Part shown: piece after piece, positions 21,433 to 33,579 of the stretch | Layout of the letters: every line of letters starts with the position of its first letter | Numbering within the stretch: the stretch's first letter is position 1 | Assembly: GCA_021107575.1 (NCBI GenBank) | Contig: JAIOSM010000089.1 | Coordinates: 1-34,191, forward strand | Reading direction: 5' to 3' | From: Desulfobacteraceae bacterium | GTDB taxonomy: Bacteria > Desulfobacterota > Desulfobacteria > Desulfobacterales > Desulfobacteraceae | Length of the DNA stretch: 34,191 nucleotides | The notes under the pieces: model-generated | What the model was told of the DNA's origin: nothing | Databases searched by the model: none | Seen by the model: the letters and a program-made list of their open reading frames with translations, nothing else | Made by a program: the position numbers and the translations under genes

Positions 21433-23148
21433 ATGCAAGCATTACTTATTATGGTTGTTGCTTTTATTGGCTATATTGCAATGTACAGCCTGTACGGCAA
21501 ATTCATTGGGAACAAAATTTTCAAACTTTCTGGAGATGTCTCCGTACCTTCAAGCGAGCTTGAAGATGGGATTGACTATGTACCAACAAAAAAAGAAGTT
21601 ATTTTCGGGCATCATTTTACATCCATCGCCGGCACTGGTCCTATTGTAGGCCCTGCTGTTGCAATAATCTGGGGGTGGGTACCCGCGTTAATATGGGTCT
21701 TTTTCGGAAGTATCTTTATGGGCGCTGTACATGATTTTGGTGCTTTAATTATTTCAATGAGAAACCAGGGAAAATCAGTTGCTGATTATACTGGTAAATA
21801 TGTTAATAACCGCACCAAATTTTTATTTTTCCTTATTGTATTCCTCGAGCTCTGGATTGTGATTGCAATTTTTGGTCTTGTAATTGCTGTTGTTTTTGCC
21901 ATGTATCCAGTATCTGTATTCCCGGTATGGTGTGAAATTTTAATAGCTCTTTATCTTGGACACTTAATATACAAAAAAGGCAAAAATATTATAACATGGT
22001 CTATTATTGCAGTTGTTGTCATGTATATCACAGTTGCAATTGGAGCATATATGCCTATAAAAATGCCTGCAGTTGCAGGAATCCCACCAACTGGTGTATG
22101 GACTATTATATTACTTATATATGCATATATTGCATCAACTCTTCCTGTTACTACTTTGCTCCAACCCCGTGATTTTATTAATTCACATCAACTTCTTGTT
22201 GCCATGGCTCTTCTTATCCTTGGTGTTATATTCTCTGCTTTTGGAGGCAACCTTGATATAGTTGCGCCAGCAGTTCAGATTGCTCCTGCAAAAGCCCCAC
22301 CAATGTGGCCATTCCTGTTTATCACTATTGCATGTGGTGCAATTTCAGGATTTCATGCCCTTGTTTCTTCTGGCACATCATCTAAACAAGTAAGAAATGA
22401 AAATGACTCCTTATTTGTTGGATACGGCTCAATGCTCATGGAAGGAACCCTTGCCACATTAGTTATTATTGCCGTTTCTGCTGGAATTGGAATGGGATAT
22501 GTTACCAAATCCGGTGAAACCCTTGTAGGCGTCGCTGCATGGACAACACATTATTCTTCATGGGCAGCTGCAGCTGGATTAGGATCAAAGATCAGTGCAT
22601 TTGTTAATGGATCTGCTAATATGATAGCATCAACCGGTCTGTCTTTTAAAATTGCTGTTGTTGTTATGGGTGTTTTTGTTGCTTCTTTTGCCGGCACAAC
22701 TCTTGATACAGCAACAAGAATCCAGAGATATATTGTTTCTGAACTCTTTGGAAGCGTTAAAATGGACTTCCTTACAGGAAAACATGCTGCTACATTGATT
22801 GCAGTTGGCACAGCCCTTATTCTTGCCTTTGCAACTGGTGCAGGAGGAAAAGGTGCACTTAAACTCTGGCCTTTGTTTGGAGCTGTAAACCAGACACTAG
22901 CAGGACTTGTTCTTATTATCATAACGGTCTATTTGAAAACAAAAGGTGGAATGAAATGGTTAATTTCAGGAATCCCTGCGATATTCATGATTATCATGAC
23001 TATATGGGCACTTTTCTTGAACCAGTCAAAATTTGGAACTGCTGACAACGCATTATTACAGGTTGTTAACGGGATTATTTTAGTTCTTGCTATCTGGATT
23101 GCTGTTGAAGGACTAATAAAATTCTTTTCCATAAAAGACGAAACCTGA
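21433..23148 (+). CDS. cstA: Carbon starvation protein A (peptide/pyruvate transporter family)
   Basis: DGIDYVPTKKEVIFGHHFTSIAGTGPIVGPAVAIIWGWVPALIWVFFGSIFMGAVHDFGAL; TTLLQPRDFIN; SGFHALVSSGTSSKQ; SD aggag upstream. Confidence 0.96.
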   Translation: MQALLIMVVAFIGYIAMYSLYGKFIGNKIFKLSGDVSVPSSELEDGIDYVPTKKEVIFGHHFTSIAGTGPIVGPAVAIIWGWVPALIWVFFGSIFMGAVHDFGALIISMRNQGKSVADYTGKYVNNRTKFLFFLIVFLELWIVIAIFGLVIAVVFAMYPVSVFPVWCEILIALYLGHLIYKKGKNIITWSIIAVVVMYITVAIGAYMPIKMPAVAGIPPTGVWTIILLIYAYIASTLPVTTLLQPRDFINSHQLLVAMALLILGVIFSAFGGNLDIVAPAVQIAPAKAPPMWPFLFITIACGAISGFHALVSSGTSSKQVRNENDSLFVGYGSMLMEGTLATLVIIAVSAGIGMGYVTKSGETLVGVAAWTTHYSSWAAAAGLGSKISAFVNGSANMIASTGLSFKIAVVVMGVFVASFAGTTLDTATRIQRYIVSELFGSVKMDFLTGKHAATLIAVGTALILAFATGAGGKGALKLWPLFGAVNQTLAGLVLIIITVYLKTKGGMKWLISGIPAIFMIIMTIWALFLNQSKFGTADNALLQVVNGIILVLAIWIAVEGLIKFFSIKDET

Positions 23149-25735: not shown

Positions 25736-26032
25736 TTACATACCAATCATTCTGAGTCCTTCTTCAGTTTCATAATATGGTAAGATATCATAGGAGTAGC
25801 CTTCAACACCAAAATAAACAGCCAGGCTATCACCAACGGCCTGAAGTCCTTCTGCAAGGCGAGAATTATCAACTTCATACAAGGTAATAGAATGGATACC
25901 GTCAAATCTGTTTGAAGAGATATAAGGGCCTTTTTTTACCAAAAATCCAGGTAGAGCTGGCGCTGTAAGAAAACGTTTTGCTATTTCTCTGGCACTTTCC
26001 GGTGGATATGTAACATTTGAAATTATAATCAT
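25736..26032 (-). CDS. Hypothetical protein, possibly a small alpha/beta-barrel-like protein
   Basis: 98-aa ORF with SD (aggaga) upstream; no family firmly recognised. Confidence 0.6.
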   Translation of the reverse strand: MIIISNVTYPPESAREIAKRFLTAPALPGFLVKKGPYISSNRFDGIHSITLYEVDNSRLAEGLQAVGDSLAVYFGVEGYSYDILPYYETEEGLRMIGM

Positions 26033-26209: not shown

Positions 26210-28516
26210 TTAGAATTTTTTTGCAATATCATTATCAATTACATAGATACAAATCTTATTTGCGCCCTGCTGAGTATAATTAAACTTTTCAACAAGATTA
26301 TTTATAAGGAACTTTACATCTGTCTTGATCCTATTGTCATAGGCTTTAAAATCATCAGTATCAAAATCTTTTATTGCACGTCGAAAATTTTCATTCTCAA
26401 TAAAGGGTTCTAAAACACGATTTTTTAAATTGTGTGCATATCGTTCATATAAAGATAGAAAAAGTTTTGTTTCTTCGATGGTTTTGCCATCAATCATAAT
26501 TTCCTGACTTAATGAATGAGTAGTGTATTGTTTTAAAACATCTGACCTGAATTCCTTACTCTTTGTTTCATCAATACTCCCTGCAAAAAGCCTGCTTTCA
26601 ATACTTTTAAAAAAACCCTCTGAAATTTCCAGTTTTTCATGGGTAAAAACACATTTTATTGAAGAATCATTTTCAAAATTTACTGCAGAGATATAGTTTT
26701 TAATATCCTTTACTATTTGTGCCTCATTATAATAATAAAGTGATTCTTTTACCTGTTGCAATACGCAATAGTCATACATCTTAATCAAAGATGACATAAA
26801 TTCCTCAGGTATCATTTTTTTATATTCATCTGAGAGTCCATTAAAAAATAAACAGAGCTCAGGCATGTTAATAAGTTGATCTTCTCTTAAATATCTTGAA
26901 TAGAACTGATCAAAAAGTTTAATGGAATCCCTTCCTGAGAACCCATTGTTTCCTTCTTTTTCTGATTCTATAATTATTTTTCGCCACATTTTCACATCAA
27001 GTGCTTTTCTATCGTCCTCATCTATCCATGATGGTATATTTCCTGAATAAATTTCCATTTTTAAAAGCATCAGGCTCTTATCACAATAAAATTTATACTT
27101 TTCAGGTTTCTTGATCCATTCAAGTAATGCATCAGATTTTTCATTAAGACGTGTGGATATAACAATTTTTGCAAAATTATGTAAAACCATGGGAAGAAAA
27201 CTTTCATCTATATGTTTCCCAAAAATATCCCTATAAATATTAACCTCGGTTTTTACATCTAAAACATATGGAATATTTATATACTGAATTCTGTCAGAAA
27301 AAGATGGAACGTCTTTAATGTTTTTTTTATCTTCCGGGTTCATAAGTGCAAAAAATAACGAGTTTACTTTTTCTTCGATATCTTCAACTTTATGCAGGCC
27401 CTCACTGATAATGTTATGAAGTTCAACCATACGGTCAATATTATGTGATTTTATGTCCATTAGGGCATAGATTCCGTTATTCACTTTTGCAAATTTTGAA
27501 TAAATATAATTAATTATATTGGAGTCCTGAAATAATATGTTAATTCTTCTTTGGATTATTTCATTATAATAGAAATCTCTTCTTACAGGCTTGTCTCCCG
27601 GGTTAAAAACACTAATTCCATTACCAAGTCGTCTGTTAAAATCATATGGGCGAGCATACAACATATTGAACACTTCAGTTGGGTTGCCAAGTCTTTCAAG
27701 AAGCGATTGAAATATCGAAGTACAAATTGTACAGGCTTCTTCATTAAAAACCCATTCATATTCTTTTTCTGTAAATAATCTCCATTTAAATTCGTCATTT
27801 TCTATGATTCCATCCAGAACATCTCTTCTGCTTTCTTTAGGTATCATTAAAATTGGGTTATCGTGAGACATACATGGAATCTCAATATAATCTTTCTCAT
27901 ATTGCTCTGCAATTTCTTCTTTTTTTCTTTTATTTTTTGAATGTTCTGTTTTTTCCATAAAGCTAAGATAATTTTCAAAAGCAGTTATAGTTTCAGATTT
28001 TTCTAATCGCCACAGCTTTTTTACATCAAGACGCCATAAAATCTCATATCGCAGGCCATTGTCAGTATTTGCATATTGCTCAAATTTTCTTAAAAGATTA
28101 TTTAGAAATGTACTTTTCCCACATCCATGGGGCCCATGGAAAATATATATTCTATTTTGCTGGGTACCATGACGTAAGCTTTCCATCTGTTTCATGAACC
28201 TGTTTGCAAATAACATATCTGTAAAATAAGGTTCCTCAGATCCTTCTACAAAAAGTTTTGTACAATCATAGGCAGTAAAATCGAATTCTTCCGGGTCATC
28301 GAATAATGCAGTGTCAAAAATCTGAACATTGCTCTTAATCATATCATGGAACGCCTGAAAAACATTTCGTAAAAGTATAGATGGATTTTGTTGAAGAAGA
28401 TTTAAAAATTCTTTAAATGGTACAGGCTTAAGTTTTTTAAAATCAACTGTTTTTTTATCAAGTAATGTAAAAGCCTGTTCTATGGAAGTACTGCCATTAG
28501 AATTATCATCATTCAT
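26210..28516 (-). CDS. Divergent PrkA-family AAA ATPase/serine protein kinase-like protein (second PrkA of the operon)
   Basis: Walker A IFHGPHGCGKSTFLNNLL; FSDRIQYINIPYVLDVKTEVNIY resembles the PrkA/YeaG segment after sensor 1; C-terminal EFRSDVLKQY..YDNRIKTDVKFLINNLVEKFNYTQQGANKICIYVID resembles the PrkA C-terminal domain. SD lies in the tail of the upstream spoVR gene. Confidence 0.82.
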   Translation of the reverse strand: MNDDNSNGSTSIEQAFTLLDKKTVDFKKLKPVPFKEFLNLLQQNPSILLRNVFQAFHDMIKSNVQIFDTALFDDPEEFDFTAYDCTKLFVEGSEEPYFTDMLFANRFMKQMESLRHGTQQNRIYIFHGPHGCGKSTFLNNLLRKFEQYANTDNGLRYEILWRLDVKKLWRLEKSETITAFENYLSFMEKTEHSKNKRKKEEIAEQYEKDYIEIPCMSHDNPILMIPKESRRDVLDGIIENDEFKWRLFTEKEYEWVFNEEACTICTSIFQSLLERLGNPTEVFNMLYARPYDFNRRLGNGISVFNPGDKPVRRDFYYNEIIQRRINILFQDSNIINYIYSKFAKVNNGIYALMDIKSHNIDRMVELHNIISEGLHKVEDIEEKVNSLFFALMNPEDKKNIKDVPSFSDRIQYINIPYVLDVKTEVNIYRDIFGKHIDESFLPMVLHNFAKIVISTRLNEKSDALLEWIKKPEKYKFYCDKSLMLLKMEIYSGNIPSWIDEDDRKALDVKMWRKIIIESEKEGNNGFSGRDSIKLFDQFYSRYLREDQLINMPELCLFFNGLSDEYKKMIPEEFMSSLIKMYDYCVLQQVKESLYYYNEAQIVKDIKNYISAVNFENDSSIKCVFTHEKLEISEGFFKSIESRLFAGSIDETKSKEFRSDVLKQYTTHSLSQEIMIDGKTIEETKLFLSLYERYAHNLKNRVLEPFIENENFRRAIKDFDTDDFKAYDNRIKTDVKFLINNLVEKFNYTQQGANKICIYVIDNDIAKKF

Positions 28517-28523
28517 ATTTTAA

Positions 28524-30188
28524 TTATATCTCCTGCTTATGAAATTTTCTATTTTCAATAACATAAAGAATTTTCTTCCATTCAAATTTTTCTTTTTCTG
28601 ATGACTCTGGCGTTTGATAATTCGGATCCCAAAAATTTACATAACTTTTATCTGATGTAGCCTGTTTTGCAACTTCGTGGGTTTCGAGTTTTATTGGACC
28701 GCCCCATAAAAATTCAATACCCATCATAGTGTTTTCTATAAAATCTTTTTTTAAGGGTTTTTCTTCAAATTTATGAACAAGATATAATAAACCCTGTTTT
28801 GACTTCTCATGATTAACAGAAATAACTGGTGGATGATAAAGAGTATCTATAACCATTTGTCTATAGTCTTGGGCATTTCTTGATTTAATATAATACTCCC
28901 TTGTCATTCTTGCCTTATTCAATCTTTGACCTGATACAAACAATTTATGTTCATTAACAAACTCCTGATCAATGTATCTATTGATAAAAGAAAAATCACA
29001 TAAATTTTCACGTACGCTGAAAATATAATCTAAGCCTGTACCTTTTAATTTATTAAAATGTTTTTTTTCGTGTTCATCTTTCAGCATAAAATATTCCAGA
29101 TCAAAACAGCCTCTATCTTCCATGGAGAGAATGTGAGAAAACAGTCGCAGACCAAGTGCATATGGATTTAAACCAAGCTTAGGCATAGCAGTAACTACTG
29201 CATTTACTTTTGCAAAGCTTACTTCATGACCATTTATTCTTTCATCTTTCATAAACAGAGTTTCATGCCAGAAACTTGCCCAGCCCTCATTCATTATCTT
29301 TGTTCTTATTTGTGGCTGGAAGTAATTTGAAGTCTGCCTTACTATCTCAATTATAGATTTCATCCATTTATTTTCATCTTCTTTTAAAAATAATGAGTGC
29401 TTAATTATATACTGGATAACATCGAGATGTTCATTGTTACTTTCTCTGGCCTCTTTTTTTTTTGTTTTATAAAACTCTGTAAATTCCGGGTGTTTTATAA
29501 AAACATCTTCAAAAAATATTGCTTCAAAGGCTTTTTTATTCTCTTTTTTACACTTGTTGTATCTTTCTATTTCTTTTAGATAATTATTAGTAGTAATTTT
29601 TTTTTCTTTTTGAAGAAAAATATCAAAATAGCAATCAACCTGAGTAAATTTTTTATTCTCAGGAAAGGTAAGCATATTATTTATTTCTCTATGATAATTA
29701 ACAAGATTATCAATTCCTCTTGCAAACTCAATAACATAATCAACCCATCTGCCTTTTTCTGCACGGTATCGTGCAATAACTCTCTTGTCAGAAAGGGCTT
29801 TACCTGTTAAGTCAAAATCCCAGGTGTTTTTGAAAAAGAGGTTGTTTTGAAAAAAGTCTATATGACCTAAAACATGATAGAATATCATCACATTCAACCA
29901 GTCAGGATTATTATCATTATAAAAAGAAATAGCAGGTCTTGTGTTAATAACTGTTTCGTAAGGATTATTTGGATAAAGCTCATACACTCCTTTACCGGAA
30001 ATGGTTTGTACGTCATGAACCCAGTAATCATACAAAGTCGGTATCATTACTTTTGGGCTCAGCTCAATCATATCCTTGTTTGTAACTATATATTCAAGAG
30101 TCTCATCATCAAACTTAAGGCCCTGATCCCTGGCTCTTTTTTTGCATTCCTCCATTATTCCTTTTGCATGTTGGCTAACCAGTTCCAT
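28524..30188 (-). CDS. spoVR: SpoVR family protein (YcgB-like)
   Basis: YEVIVTN-like N-terminus; MIFYHVLGHIDFFQNN; MNEGWASFWHETLFM; NPYALGLRLF; DYIFSVRENLCDFSFINRYIDQEFV. Confidence 0.95.
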   Translation of the reverse strand: MELVSQHAKGIMEECKKRARDQGLKFDDETLEYIVTNKDMIELSPKVMIPTLYDYWVHDVQTISGKGVYELYPNNPYETVINTRPAISFYNDNNPDWLNVMIFYHVLGHIDFFQNNLFFKNTWDFDLTGKALSDKRVIARYRAEKGRWVDYVIEFARGIDNLVNYHREINNMLTFPENKKFTQVDCYFDIFLQKEKKITTNNYLKEIERYNKCKKENKKAFEAIFFEDVFIKHPEFTEFYKTKKKEARESNNEHLDVIQYIIKHSLFLKEDENKWMKSIIEIVRQTSNYFQPQIRTKIMNEGWASFWHETLFMKDERINGHEVSFAKVNAVVTAMPKLGLNPYALGLRLFSHILSMEDRGCFDLEYFMLKDEHEKKHFNKLKGTGLDYIFSVRENLCDFSFINRYIDQEFVNEHKLFVSGQRLNKARMTREYYIKSRNAQDYRQMVIDTLYHPPVISVNHEKSKQGLLYLVHKFEEKPLKKDFIENTMMGIEFLWGGPIKLETHEVAKQATSDKSYVNFWDPNYQTPESSEKEKFEWKKILYVIENRKFHKQEI

Positions 30189-30210
30189 TTCTCATTTCCT
30201 GTTTTAAAAT

Positions 30211-31392
30211 TTATGAAATAAGTTTTTTTATACCCTGAATAATTCTCGAATCATCTGAACTTTCACTAAGTACATCCATTTTAATATAATTCTTTTGTTT
30301 ACTCAGGATCTCAGATTTTTTTAAATATAGTTCTACCTCTGTCTGTCTTGATTTTGAATAAGTATGTTCAACTATTGAAATTCCGACTCTTGAAGCATAT
30401 CCAAGCATTTTTTTAAGCTCTTCTATTGCTTCCTTACCATCTGTGTCCCAATCATCTCCATCAGTGCCATGAAAAATAAAAATATTATAATCCCGTGCTA
30501 AATTTTCCTTTTCAACAATATCATTTACCATTTTATAGCCTGAAACAACTTTAGTACCTCCTGCGACCTTATATGAATAATACTTATAAAAATCCTCGAC
30601 TTCCCTCGCCTCTGTATCATGAAGAATAAATCTTGTTTCAACTTGTTTCTCATATTGATAAAGCAACCATGAATAAAGCATTACATGCTGTGATACGACA
30701 ACCTGAGTAGTTTTGCCTCCCATGGAACCGGAATAATCCCTTACAAAAAAAACTATTGCCTGGGATTCAAAATCTTTTTCTCTTGATAAAATTCTATAAA
30801 CCAGATCTCTTGGAGAAATAATAAATGATGTAGGATCAATATCAGAAACATCAGGGATATTCCCAAGGCATCTGTTTGTTTGAACTACTTGTTTTAGAGT
30901 AGCCTTTTTATCAAGAACCTGGCCAACACCTCTGTTTTTGTCAGTCAAGTCATAAATATACCGTGAAAGAACGCGCTTTTTACCTTTATTACTTAAATTA
31001 GGAAGATCAAAATCCTCGGACAAACTCTTCCCCAGTTCATAGGCATTGGATTCAAGTTCATGTTCTCCTCCTTCTCCCTGACCCGGCCCTTCTCCTCCTT
31101 CGCCCTCGCCTTCTTCTTCAGAAGGTCTCAACGGCTCTTCTCCAATCACTTCGCCTTCTTGGCCTTCACCGGTTCCACCTGTTGAATCTCCCTGACCTCC
31201 TTCAGACTCTGGTACAGGTTTATCATGAATAAATTTTTCTTCTACGGTTGTTGGAACTATTATAATCCGCTCTTTACCTCTCTTGCTGGGCTTTACAATT
31301 TTACCGATACGGATCTTTCGCTTAAATCCGTCATCTTCTCGTTTACGATCCCTTTGGAGTAGTTCATCCAGAGTTACCATTTTATTTGTCAT
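30211..31392 (-). CDS. yeaH: DUF444 family protein (YeaH-like) with VWA-type domain
   Basis: AIVFFVRDYSGSMGGKTTQVVVSQHVMLYSWLLYQYEKQVETRFILHDTEAREV, MIDAS-like DxSxS; acidic Gly/Glu-rich N-terminal region. Overlaps the prkA stop; internal ATG at 31380 is an alternative start with better SD spacing. Confidence 0.93.
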   Translation of the reverse strand: MTNKMVTLDELLQRDRKREDDGFKRKIRIGKIVKPSKRGKERIIIVPTTVEEKFIHDKPVPESEGGQGDSTGGTGEGQEGEVIGEEPLRPSEEEGEGEGGEGPGQGEGGEHELESNAYELGKSLSEDFDLPNLSNKGKKRVLSRYIYDLTDKNRGVGQVLDKKATLKQVVQTNRCLGNIPDVSDIDPTSFIISPRDLVYRILSREKDFESQAIVFFVRDYSGSMGGKTTQVVVSQHVMLYSWLLYQYEKQVETRFILHDTEAREVEDFYKYYSYKVAGGTKVVSGYKMVNDIVEKENLARDYNIFIFHGTDGDDWDTDGKEAIEELKKMLGYASRVGISIVEHTYSKSRQTEVELYLKKSEILSKQKNYIKMDVLSESSDDSRIIQGIKKLIS

Positions 31393-33436
31393 CCTCCTGG
31401 CTGCAAAAATATTCTATTGTTTTTTGAGCACAAGTACTGCAATATTTTAGTTTACCCATCATTGTTGTAACCATTCGGTCATAAAGTTTTTGATTTTCTT
31501 CATTGGTTCTGTTAGCCAGCGCTCCTATCAGGCTACCTGCACCTGCAATATCAGATTTTAATCTGACGTCTGTAACGGCTTTAACAAGTTCTAAATTATC
31601 CATAAAATCATAATTGATATCCACAGAGATTTTCTGTCCATAAATTTTCCTGATGGAATTTCTAAACGATGTCCTTTGCTCGTCAGTTTTAAGCCCTAAT
31701 CTGTCTTCAACATTTTGAATATAACGTTCATCAATTTTAATAGCTTTTAACTCACCTGACTGAGGGTCTTTATACTTCCACATCATATCAACCCCAAGGT
31801 TCTCTGCATCAATACCTATAATCATATTTACATAATTCATAACATCTTTTTTAATTGCCAGAGGCTCGTCCATATATGCATTAAACATTTCAGTCATAAC
31901 TCTTTCACGATAAAGTCCTCTTGCGATTTTCAAATCTTCAAGAAACTTGCTGCGATCCTGAGCATCATTCACATAATCAAGAATTATTGTTTCAAGTGCT
32001 TTAAAAATATCCAGGGCAAACATGCATTTGCCTTCGTTTGTTTCTGAGCTCTCAAGCAATAGCTGAACTGCCCTGCCAAGGTTTCTCTGCCCAAGTCCTT
32101 TTTGTCCAAACCGCTTTGTAATATCTGTTTCTCTATTTAATGTATCAATCAATTCGGCAAGGGTTTTATGGCTTTTTTCACCAGCCACTTCTCCTGCTGC
32201 AAGTTTCATTGTTTCCACAGGCGTTAATTTTTCAGATCTGGGCAATCTTGATAGAATCACACCAACAGATGCGGCATAATTGAGGTTTGGATCCTGGTGT
32301 AATGTCTCATGATTAAAAGTGGTTTTAACATCACTTCCAATAGCATAACTTGTTAATGTTTCCTGAAGTTTATAATCTGTGTTATGTGCCACATAGCAAA
32401 TACGACATCTATCAATAATTGGAGCTTCTTCTCTTTCTGCAAGAAACGTATCAAATTCTGAATTATTACTTGTGGCAATAATTAAAGTGTCAATTGGCCA
32501 TTTGAATCCATCCAGCTCTATTGATCTGTTCTGAATCACCCCCAGATAGACCTGTACAAGGTCTTTTTTGTTCTTATATATTTCATCACTGAAATGTATT
32601 CCACCTCCTGCAACTCTGGCAAGAGCACCTCTTCTTAAGTCAAACCTGTAAGGATTATTTGTATCAGATATATGAAGCAGTCTTTGAATGGATTCTTCTC
32701 CCAAAAGATCAACTGCTGAAGAGGTGATTTTATCCTTGGCAGGATACTTTCCTGTCACAGTACCAAGGCTTTCAATCAAAGGTACAGGGATGATATCAAT
32801 AAATGCTAACATTTTCTTGATGTCATTATCTGTATGTGCTCGTATTAATTCCCAGATATAGGCACTACAAGCTCCAAGTGGACGATATTTTTCATATATT
32901 GATTCTAATTTTTTGGGCGGGAATTTAAAAATTTTCTCAAAATGCTTTCTTGAACCATCTTTTGTCTCCATAAGATTCATGGCAAGAATCATGGGATCTT
33001 CATAAGTCTGAGACTCAACAGTCTTTATTTTTCCAAAACTGCCTAATTTATCAAGATTATTAAACTTAAAAGTATATCTTCTATTATCTGGTTTAGTCAA
33101 AAACTCTCTGTACTGATCGCACAAAAAATCCACAAAAAACGTTTTACCATTTCCGGGCTCACCAACCAGAACAAATGCCATCTCACCTGATGAACCACCT
33201 TCTGCTGCATCTTTCACAAAGGATACAAAACTGTTTATTTCATCATACATCCCAATAAGATGTTTTTTCTTTTTGCTGAAAAGATCAAATTGATAGGTTG
33301 TTTTCCCTTTTACTGTAATCTTCTGAATCCCAGCCTTTAAAATCATTCTGGAGACGCTCTGAAAAGCGTTTTCAAAAGCTCGTTTTCCTTTTTTAACAGA
33401 ATCTATGTGATGTGAAAGAGTTTGATTCTCACCCAT
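31382..33436 (-). CDS. prkA: PrkA family serine protein kinase (YeaG-like AAA ATPase)
   Basis: FVLVGEPGNGKTFFVDFLCDQY Walker A; RGALARVAGGGIHFSDEIYKN; DTLIIATSNNSEFDTF; C-terminal YCSTCAQKTIEYF. Start at 33436 (MGENQTL) supported by GGAGGG SD; the track ORF to 33523 is an extension. Confidence 0.94.
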   Translation of the reverse strand: MGENQTLSHHIDSVKKGKRAFENAFQSVSRMILKAGIQKITVKGKTTYQFDLFSKKKKHLIGMYDEINSFVSFVKDAAEGGSSGEMAFVLVGEPGNGKTFFVDFLCDQYREFLTKPDNRRYTFKFNNLDKLGSFGKIKTVESQTYEDPMILAMNLMETKDGSRKHFEKIFKFPPKKLESIYEKYRPLGACSAYIWELIRAHTDNDIKKMLAFIDIIPVPLIESLGTVTGKYPAKDKITSSAVDLLGEESIQRLLHISDTNNPYRFDLRRGALARVAGGGIHFSDEIYKNKKDLVQVYLGVIQNRSIELDGFKWPIDTLIIATSNNSEFDTFLAEREEAPIIDRCRICYVAHNTDYKLQETLTSYAIGSDVKTTFNHETLHQDPNLNYAASVGVILSRLPRSEKLTPVETMKLAAGEVAGEKSHKTLAELIDTLNRETDITKRFGQKGLGQRNLGRAVQLLLESSETNEGKCMFALDIFKALETIILDYVNDAQDRSKFLEDLKIARGLYRERVMTEMFNAYMDEPLAIKKDVMNYVNMIIGIDAENLGVDMMWKYKDPQSGELKAIKIDERYIQNVEDRLGLKTDEQRTSFRNSIRKIYGQKISVDINYDFMDNLELVKAVTDVRLKSDIAGAGSLIGALANRTNEENQKLYDRMVTTMMGKLKYCSTCAQKTIEYFCSQEDDK

Positions 33437-33550
33437 TTTTTCCCTCCTCCGGGCAGCAGGAAGGTTAATGCTGCCATGATTAAAATCATTTAAATAACTA
33501 AAACTAATTAAACATGCCCACATTATGAATCATAAATATACCTAACTAAG

Positions 33551-33579
33551 ATTTTAACAACCCATATTTTCCATGTCAA
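33551..33579 (-). promoter_or_regulatory. Sigma70-like promoter of the prkA operon
   Basis: Minus strand TTGACA (33579-33574), 17-nt spacer, TAAAAT (33556-33551), about 115 nt upstream of the prkA ATG. Confidence 0.7.

Follow-up and report, generated by a model that had tools for sequence, protein, structure and literature searches.

The three-gene association YeaG/YeaH/YcgB has long been known (PMC2375023). YeaG-YeaH-YcgB of Escherichia coli and PrkA-YhbH-SpoVR of Bacillus, Thermomicrobium and Legionella belong to the same three families, are often encoded in the order prkA-DUF444-spoVR, and are associated with stress. In haloarchaea, two adjacent PrkA-like genes always accompany DUF444 and SpoVR in all genomes compared in 2011 (PMC3102087), and a Haloquadratum gene bears the name prkA2 (PMC9684190). 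Here we describe a four-gene operon, prkA1-DUF444-spoVR-prkA2, on contig JAIOSM010000089.1 of a Desulfobacteraceae bacterium (assembly GCA_021107575.1); the window is the whole stretch of DNA analyzed, 34,191 nucleotides (nt). The canonical sets possess a single PrkA, whereas the set in the window has two. Paired PrkA genes beside DUF444 and SpoVR, which the original prediction had mentioned for some haloarchaea, are indeed already published for them.

PrkA/YeaG has gone under the labels kinase and protease and, more recently, AAA+ ATPase, and its role with DUF444 and SpoVR is puzzling in E. coli, Bacillus, and haloarchaea alike. According to a 2026 study, Bacillus anthracis PrkA belongs to clade III of the AAA+ proteins, shows negligible activity as a kinase or a protease, oligomerizes with ATP, and is required for sporulation and osmotic stress resistance; its autophosphorylation is undetectable, and no P-loop is present in its C-terminal kinase-like part (PMC13001217). 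Given these properties, the family name "kinase" is to be used with care. A lineage with one catalytic and one degenerate PrkA would let the hydrolyzing sites, the VWA-contacting subunit, and the SpoVR-contacting subunit be told apart. In the open-licence literature, subscription papers lying outside the search, we found no account of a paired-PrkA set in bacteria or of an asymmetry of its Walker B motifs. Newly described here is the contrast between a complete Walker B in PrkA1 and a degenerate one in PrkA2.

A conserved four-gene set with two PrkA-family proteins

The open reading frame (ORF) list places the four genes on the minus strand in the order prkA1-DUF444-spoVR-prkA2:

31382-33436, minus strand: PrkA1, AAA+ PrkA-family ATPase with complete catalytic motifs, 684 amino acids (aa), from the ATG at 33436
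30211-31392, minus strand: DUF444 protein (YeaH/YhbH-like) with VWA metal ion-dependent adhesion site (MIDAS) motifs DxSGS, GGT, and TDGDD, 393 aa
28524-30188, minus strand: SpoVR/YcgB-family protein, 554 aa
26210-28516, minus strand: PrkA2, divergent PrkA-family AAA+ protein with degenerate Walker B, 768 aa

As originally predicted, the genes form a one-strand operon with overlaps or gaps of at most 22 nt: prkA1 and DUF444 overlap by 11 nt, DUF444 and spoVR lie 22 nt apart, and spoVR and prkA2 lie 7 nt apart. No terminator-like site was found on the minus strand within the operon. The PrkA1 start at 33436 is preceded by GGAGGAGGG, a strong ribosome-binding site; an alternative in-frame ATG further upstream, at 33523, has none.

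Profile searches bore out the presence of two full-length, divergent PrkA proteins. Relative to curated Pfam cut-offs of 25-27 bits for the operon's families (25 for the PrkA domains), PrkA1 scored 125 bits with PF06798 and 42 bits with PF08298, and PrkA2 scored 182 and 34 bits, PF08298 coverage being partial in both; the DUF444 protein matched PF04285 (117 bits) and SpoVR matched PF04293 (210 bits). Membership of the 768-aa protein in an unrelated AAA family was looked for in these searches and not found, and PrkA2 matched the solved "serine protein kinase" 9xip at E 2e-22 (PrkA1, E 4e-11), a PrkA type represented by 30 chains in three entries. A direct profile-profile comparison of PrkA1 and PrkA2 was weak (E 3e-4, probability 41%), so the case for their homology to each other comes from the Pfam and 9xip matches they have in common. 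Both are distant from canonical PrkA, with about 20-30% identity. In NCBIfam, PrkA1 reached 28.6 bits against the canonical PrkA equivalog PRK15455 (cut-off 576) and PrkA2 had no meaningful match; the DUF444 protein is an equivalog match (NF003712, 681 bits; cut-off 421). No further PF06798 protein was found in the genome itself, a 526-contig draft assembly.

The set is conserved well beyond the window. We collected 80 named loci recruited by PrkA2, mostly from Desulfobacterales, with a few labeled KSB1, Aminicenantes, UASB270, or Geobacter. In 52 of the 54 loci with enough flank, all four genes share one strand and keep the order seen in the window, and SpoVR lies upstream of PrkA2 on the same strand in 62/63 testable loci, with the tightest junction of the set (median gap, 3 nt). 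The three components of the canonical sets thus occur together in these 52 loci; the single canonical-clade PrkA of those sets does not. A fairer test of co-occurrence than PrkA2-selected loci is a sample of 193 genomes of the window's class, of which 100 encode PrkA2 and 102 encode PrkA1. Every one of the 100 PrkA2 genomes also encodes PrkA1, and only two have PrkA1 alone: G325, which is 89% complete, and G167, where it is a contig-end fragment. SpoVR was found in 96 class genomes, each of them a PrkA genome. PrkA2 occurring mostly without its partners was looked for and not found; co-occurrence is near perfect.

A PF06798 search of the same 193 genomes gave matches in 101, nearly all with exactly two copies. 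The matches listed score about 126-202 bits and are PrkA1- or PrkA2-like, canonical PrkA scoring about 290 bits or more; no third, canonical-scoring PrkA was among them. In a phylum-level sample of 148 genomes, the PrkA1/PrkA2 pair is present without a canonical PrkA in seven and a canonical PrkA is present in about ten, and in the phylum of the KSB1 genome the pair is present in 2/82, the remaining PrkA carriers having canonical-scoring copies. Together, the class-wide co-occurrence and the apparent lack of canonical PrkA indicate that the four genes function as a single unit, and the set appears to replace the canonical one in its class.

Several features of the surroundings and of individual loci were also recorded. 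The region's best promoter-like site stands before PrkA1:

33551-33579, minus strand: promoter-like site TTGACA-17-TAAAAT, 11/12, a consensus match only

Such sites are no more frequent here than in shuffled sequence. A CstA carbon-starvation transporter gene lies near the operon on the opposite strand (21433-23148), and a 98-aa ORF without a Pfam or NCBIfam match lies downstream of prkA2 on the same strand (25736-26032). A defense system was considered and rejected, PADLOC matches being weak, one of them to a P-loop region. Among named organisms, Desulfobacterales (Desulfobacula, Desulfospira, and Desulfocicer) have the closest relatives of PrkA2, the remaining operon proteins, and the window's SecA (72-73%), which suggests a sulfate reducer of the Desulfobacteraceae kind. 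The closest PrkA2 relative (L026, 83%) lies in a 1.8-Mb metagenome-assembled genome labeled Aminicenantes that has no SecA match, and is probably a misbinned or mislabeled Desulfobacterales contig. An extra PrkA2 paralog with the same GIYALMD motif lies upstream of PrkA1 at L065:264-2537, and a degenerate additional copy occupies the same position in L097. In Desulfonema magnum (L077:3851-8000), chemotaxis-receptor-like and periplasmic-binding-protein-like genes, identified by translation only, stand between spoVR and prkA2.

Asymmetric motifs in PrkA1 and PrkA2

Motifs were counted site by site in 53 PrkA1 and 84 PrkA2 sequences aligned with canonical PrkA. Their positions in the window are as follows:

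33140-33163, minus strand: PrkA1 Walker A GEPGNGKT, residues 92-99, invariant in 53 orthologs
32582-32596, minus strand: PrkA1 Walker B HFSDE, residues 281-285, DE in 53/53
31430-31444, minus strand: PrkA1 C-terminal YCxxC, residues 665-669, in 53/53 PrkA1 and 0/84 PrkA2
28109-28135, minus strand: PrkA2 Walker A GPHGCGKST, residues 128-136, GKST in 84/84
27863-27874, minus strand: PrkA2 CxxH (C215-H218), first half of a putative metal site, in 84/84 PrkA2 and 0/53 PrkA1
27722-27733, minus strand: PrkA2 CxxC (C262-C265), second half of the putative metal site, CxxH...CxxC in 84/84 PrkA2 and 0/53 PrkA1
27455-27475, minus strand: PrkA2 degenerate Walker B GIYALMD, residues 348-354, Met353/Asp354 in place of Asp/Glu in 84/84
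27338-27340, minus strand: PrkA2 sensor-1 Asn393, invariant in 84/84
27290-27292, minus strand: PrkA2 putative arginine finger Arg409, invariant in 84/84

The P-loop, sensor-1 Asn, and arginine finger are invariant in PrkA1 and PrkA2 alike, and the two paralogs part at Walker B. PrkA1 has the classical HFxDE, and canonical PrkA has GxxEFxE with both Glu residues invariant (catalytic Glu in 22/22). The catalytic position is thus Glu in 53/53 PrkA1 and Asp in 84/84 PrkA2. This pattern would fit PrkA2 as a nucleotide-binding, trans-acting subunit with weak hydrolysis, and the conserved asymmetry makes the predicted hetero-oligomeric PrkA ATPase plausible. The cysteine motifs differ as well: several canonical PrkAs possess both YCxxC and CxxH...CxxC, and PrkA1 and PrkA2 keep one each, as if two putative metal motifs had been divided between the paralogs.

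A second, distant lineage of the same phylum has the same arrangement. Genome G021 (L172:7030-14644) encodes a PrkA of 739 aa, DUF444, SpoVR, and a PrkA of 863 aa in the order seen in the window; all four families are confirmed by Pfam, and the proteins are about 25% identical to their counterparts in the window. Its first PrkA keeps the Glu (GFVEIHEILK) and its second has Asp (GLLHIHDAFGG), a replacement also present in a relative in G434; the second PrkA with Asp is represented in this lineage by loci L172 and L215. In both lineages, the Glu is lost in the PrkA located behind spoVR. A tree separated the sequences into five groups, with PrkA1 and PrkA2 each a fully supported clade apart from canonical PrkA. 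The tree, for which treekit gave a long-branch warning, does not settle a sister relationship between PrkA2 and the L172 second PrkA, and is compatible with a single ancient duplication as well as with convergence.

The two partner proteins retain their own conserved motifs. The DUF444 protein is, as predicted, a MIDAS-type VWA protein, with DxSxS, T, and D intact in 58/58 sequences. SpoVR has HxxxH (H105, H109) in 67/67 and NEGWA..WH in 62/67; in the window protein, the invariant E301 within NEGWASFWH together with H105xxxH109 recalls a metal site, predicted from sequence. E. coli YcgB carries HxxxxH, a spacing unlike that of the window SpoVR. These motifs are suggestive of a zincin-like (pseudo)metalloprotease, which we keep only as a lead; the SpoVR model (predicted local distance difference test [pLDDT], 73) gave no significant PDB fold match.

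A proposed mixed PrkA1/PrkA2 assembly and its alternatives

Gene content, co-occurrence, gene order, and motifs were observed directly, and our preferred reading of them, to which we assign a probability of roughly 0.5, is an AAA+ assembly of PrkA1 and PrkA2 in which active and impaired sites are mixed, with a VWA adaptor, a SpoVR partner, and a role in stress. Two obligately paired, non-equivalent subunits would form this PrkA-type stress machine. PrkA1 would bind and hydrolyze ATP. PrkA2 would bind ATP through its intact P-loop and supply sensor and arginine-finger residues, but with Asp in place of the catalytic Glu and Met in place of the Walker B Asp, its hydrolysis would be weak or absent. 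The subunits would most likely assemble as a mixed ring, with the DUF444 protein as a metal-dependent adaptor or substrate selector tied most closely to PrkA1 and SpoVR as an effector or client partner tied most closely to PrkA2. During starvation or other stress, such a ring would act on a client protein or complex and remodel it. We infer the hydrolysis defect, the hetero-oligomerization, and the adaptor and effector roles from these patterns, and the stress function from homology to YeaG/YeaH/YcgB.

Several points weigh against this assembly. A Glu-to-Asp change reduces hydrolysis and may not eliminate activity; the canonical PrkA Walker B is itself unusual, having GxxEFxE and no Asp, so that motif rules may transfer incompletely; and aligning the PrkA2 Walker B with that of PrkA1 requires a gap of one residue. 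PrkA2's AlphaFold model is moderate (pLDDT 76) and has no significant PDB fold match: its top matches are mostly AAA+ proteins (Ycf2-FtsHi, FtsH, ORC, and p97), none with E < 0.001. Genetic pairing would be expected equally of two separate rings in one pathway.

That last arrangement, two homo-oligomeric machines, one pairing PrkA1 and DUF444 in the manner of YeaG and YeaH and the other pairing PrkA2 and SpoVR, is unlikely yet the closest competitor. One genus divides the set into exactly these halves: in G184, PrkA1-DUF444 is on one contig and SpoVR-PrkA2 on another, and G325 and G302 have PrkA1-DUF444 without SpoVR and PrkA2 alongside. In G192, the two halves of the set lie about 4.6 kb apart. 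The SpoVR-PrkA2 junction is the tightest, and in E. coli yeaG and yeaH are adjacent, with ycgB elsewhere. The split sets, together with G220 (below), suggest that PrkA1 is closest to DUF444 and PrkA2 closest to SpoVR, a pairing that fits one mixed machine and two cooperating machines alike. The degenerate Walker B in every PrkA2, however, is unfavorable for a stand-alone motor, and genomes that have lost just one of the two PrkAs are almost unknown.

In the single-contig genome G220 (L138), the operon is broken inside DUF444, which is truncated, PrkA2 is reduced to a C-terminal remnant of about 64 residues some 365 kb away, and SpoVR was not found. A chimeric ORF in G216 (L137:4704-8141) joins the PrkA1 AAA+ part to most of PrkA2. 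We rejected it as a true fusion, PrkA1 being interrupted upstream and DUF444 and spoVR missing; the locus is probably decayed.

It is doubtful that PrkA2 serves as a pseudo-ATPase regulator or scaffold of SpoVR, outside any PrkA1 ring. Its degenerate Walker B would suit such a role, as would its greater divergence (mostly 54-68% identity to the window protein, compared with 74-83% for PrkA1 in the same species set), but the P-loop, sensor-1 Asn, and arginine finger are invariant in 84/84 sequences, so nucleotide binding and trans action at an interface appear to be under selection. Serine/threonine kinase activity of PrkA1 and PrkA2 toward different substrates, as the family annotation and the description of PF06798 as a kinase C-terminal domain would have it, is very improbable, given that B. 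anthracis PrkA shows no detectable autophosphorylation and has a kinase-like part without a P-loop (PMC13001217), and that the conserved PrkA1/PrkA2 asymmetry sits in the AAA+ site.

Comparison with known systems

PrkA-type genes also occur in phages. Canonical PrkA is encoded by uncultured huge phages of about 600 kb and by several Thermus phages; the huge phages have SpoVR in addition, as has been described for the Ralstonia jumbo phage RsoM2USA (PMC8504454).

Among cellular systems, the haloarchaeal cluster likewise comprises two PrkA-like genes, DUF444, and SpoVR, always together. By published description its PrkA genes adjoin each other, whereas those in the window flank DUF444 and spoVR; haloarchaeal relatives were not among the matches listed in our plasmid searches. 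A more tentative and rather unlikely extension of the mixed assembly is that an ancient PrkA duplication, common to bacteria and haloarchaea, gave rise to an obligate hetero-oligomeric AAA+ motor with hydrolysis-dead positions built into it, and with PrkA2, the second PrkA of L172, and one haloarchaeal PrkA as the same degenerate subunit. If so, the asymmetric ring and the single-PrkA ring would be two fundamentally alternative designs.

Heterodimeric ATP-binding cassette (ABC) exporters such as TM287/288 and TAP also pair paralogous ATPases, one site having Asp for the catalytic Glu. They resemble PrkA1/PrkA2 in logic and are unrelated, being ABC rather than AAA+ proteins. MoxR/VWA systems likewise encode an AAA+ ATPase beside a MIDAS VWA protein, and the original prediction had likened the operon to them. 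This likeness holds as an analogy only: MoxR belongs to a different AAA+ family, neither PrkA scored above the cut-off for a MoxR-type Pfam model, and the set in the window has two AAA+ genes together with SpoVR. The four-gene cluster suggests a PrkA motor of two mixed subunits, unlike the single-PrkA form of E. coli and Bacillus.

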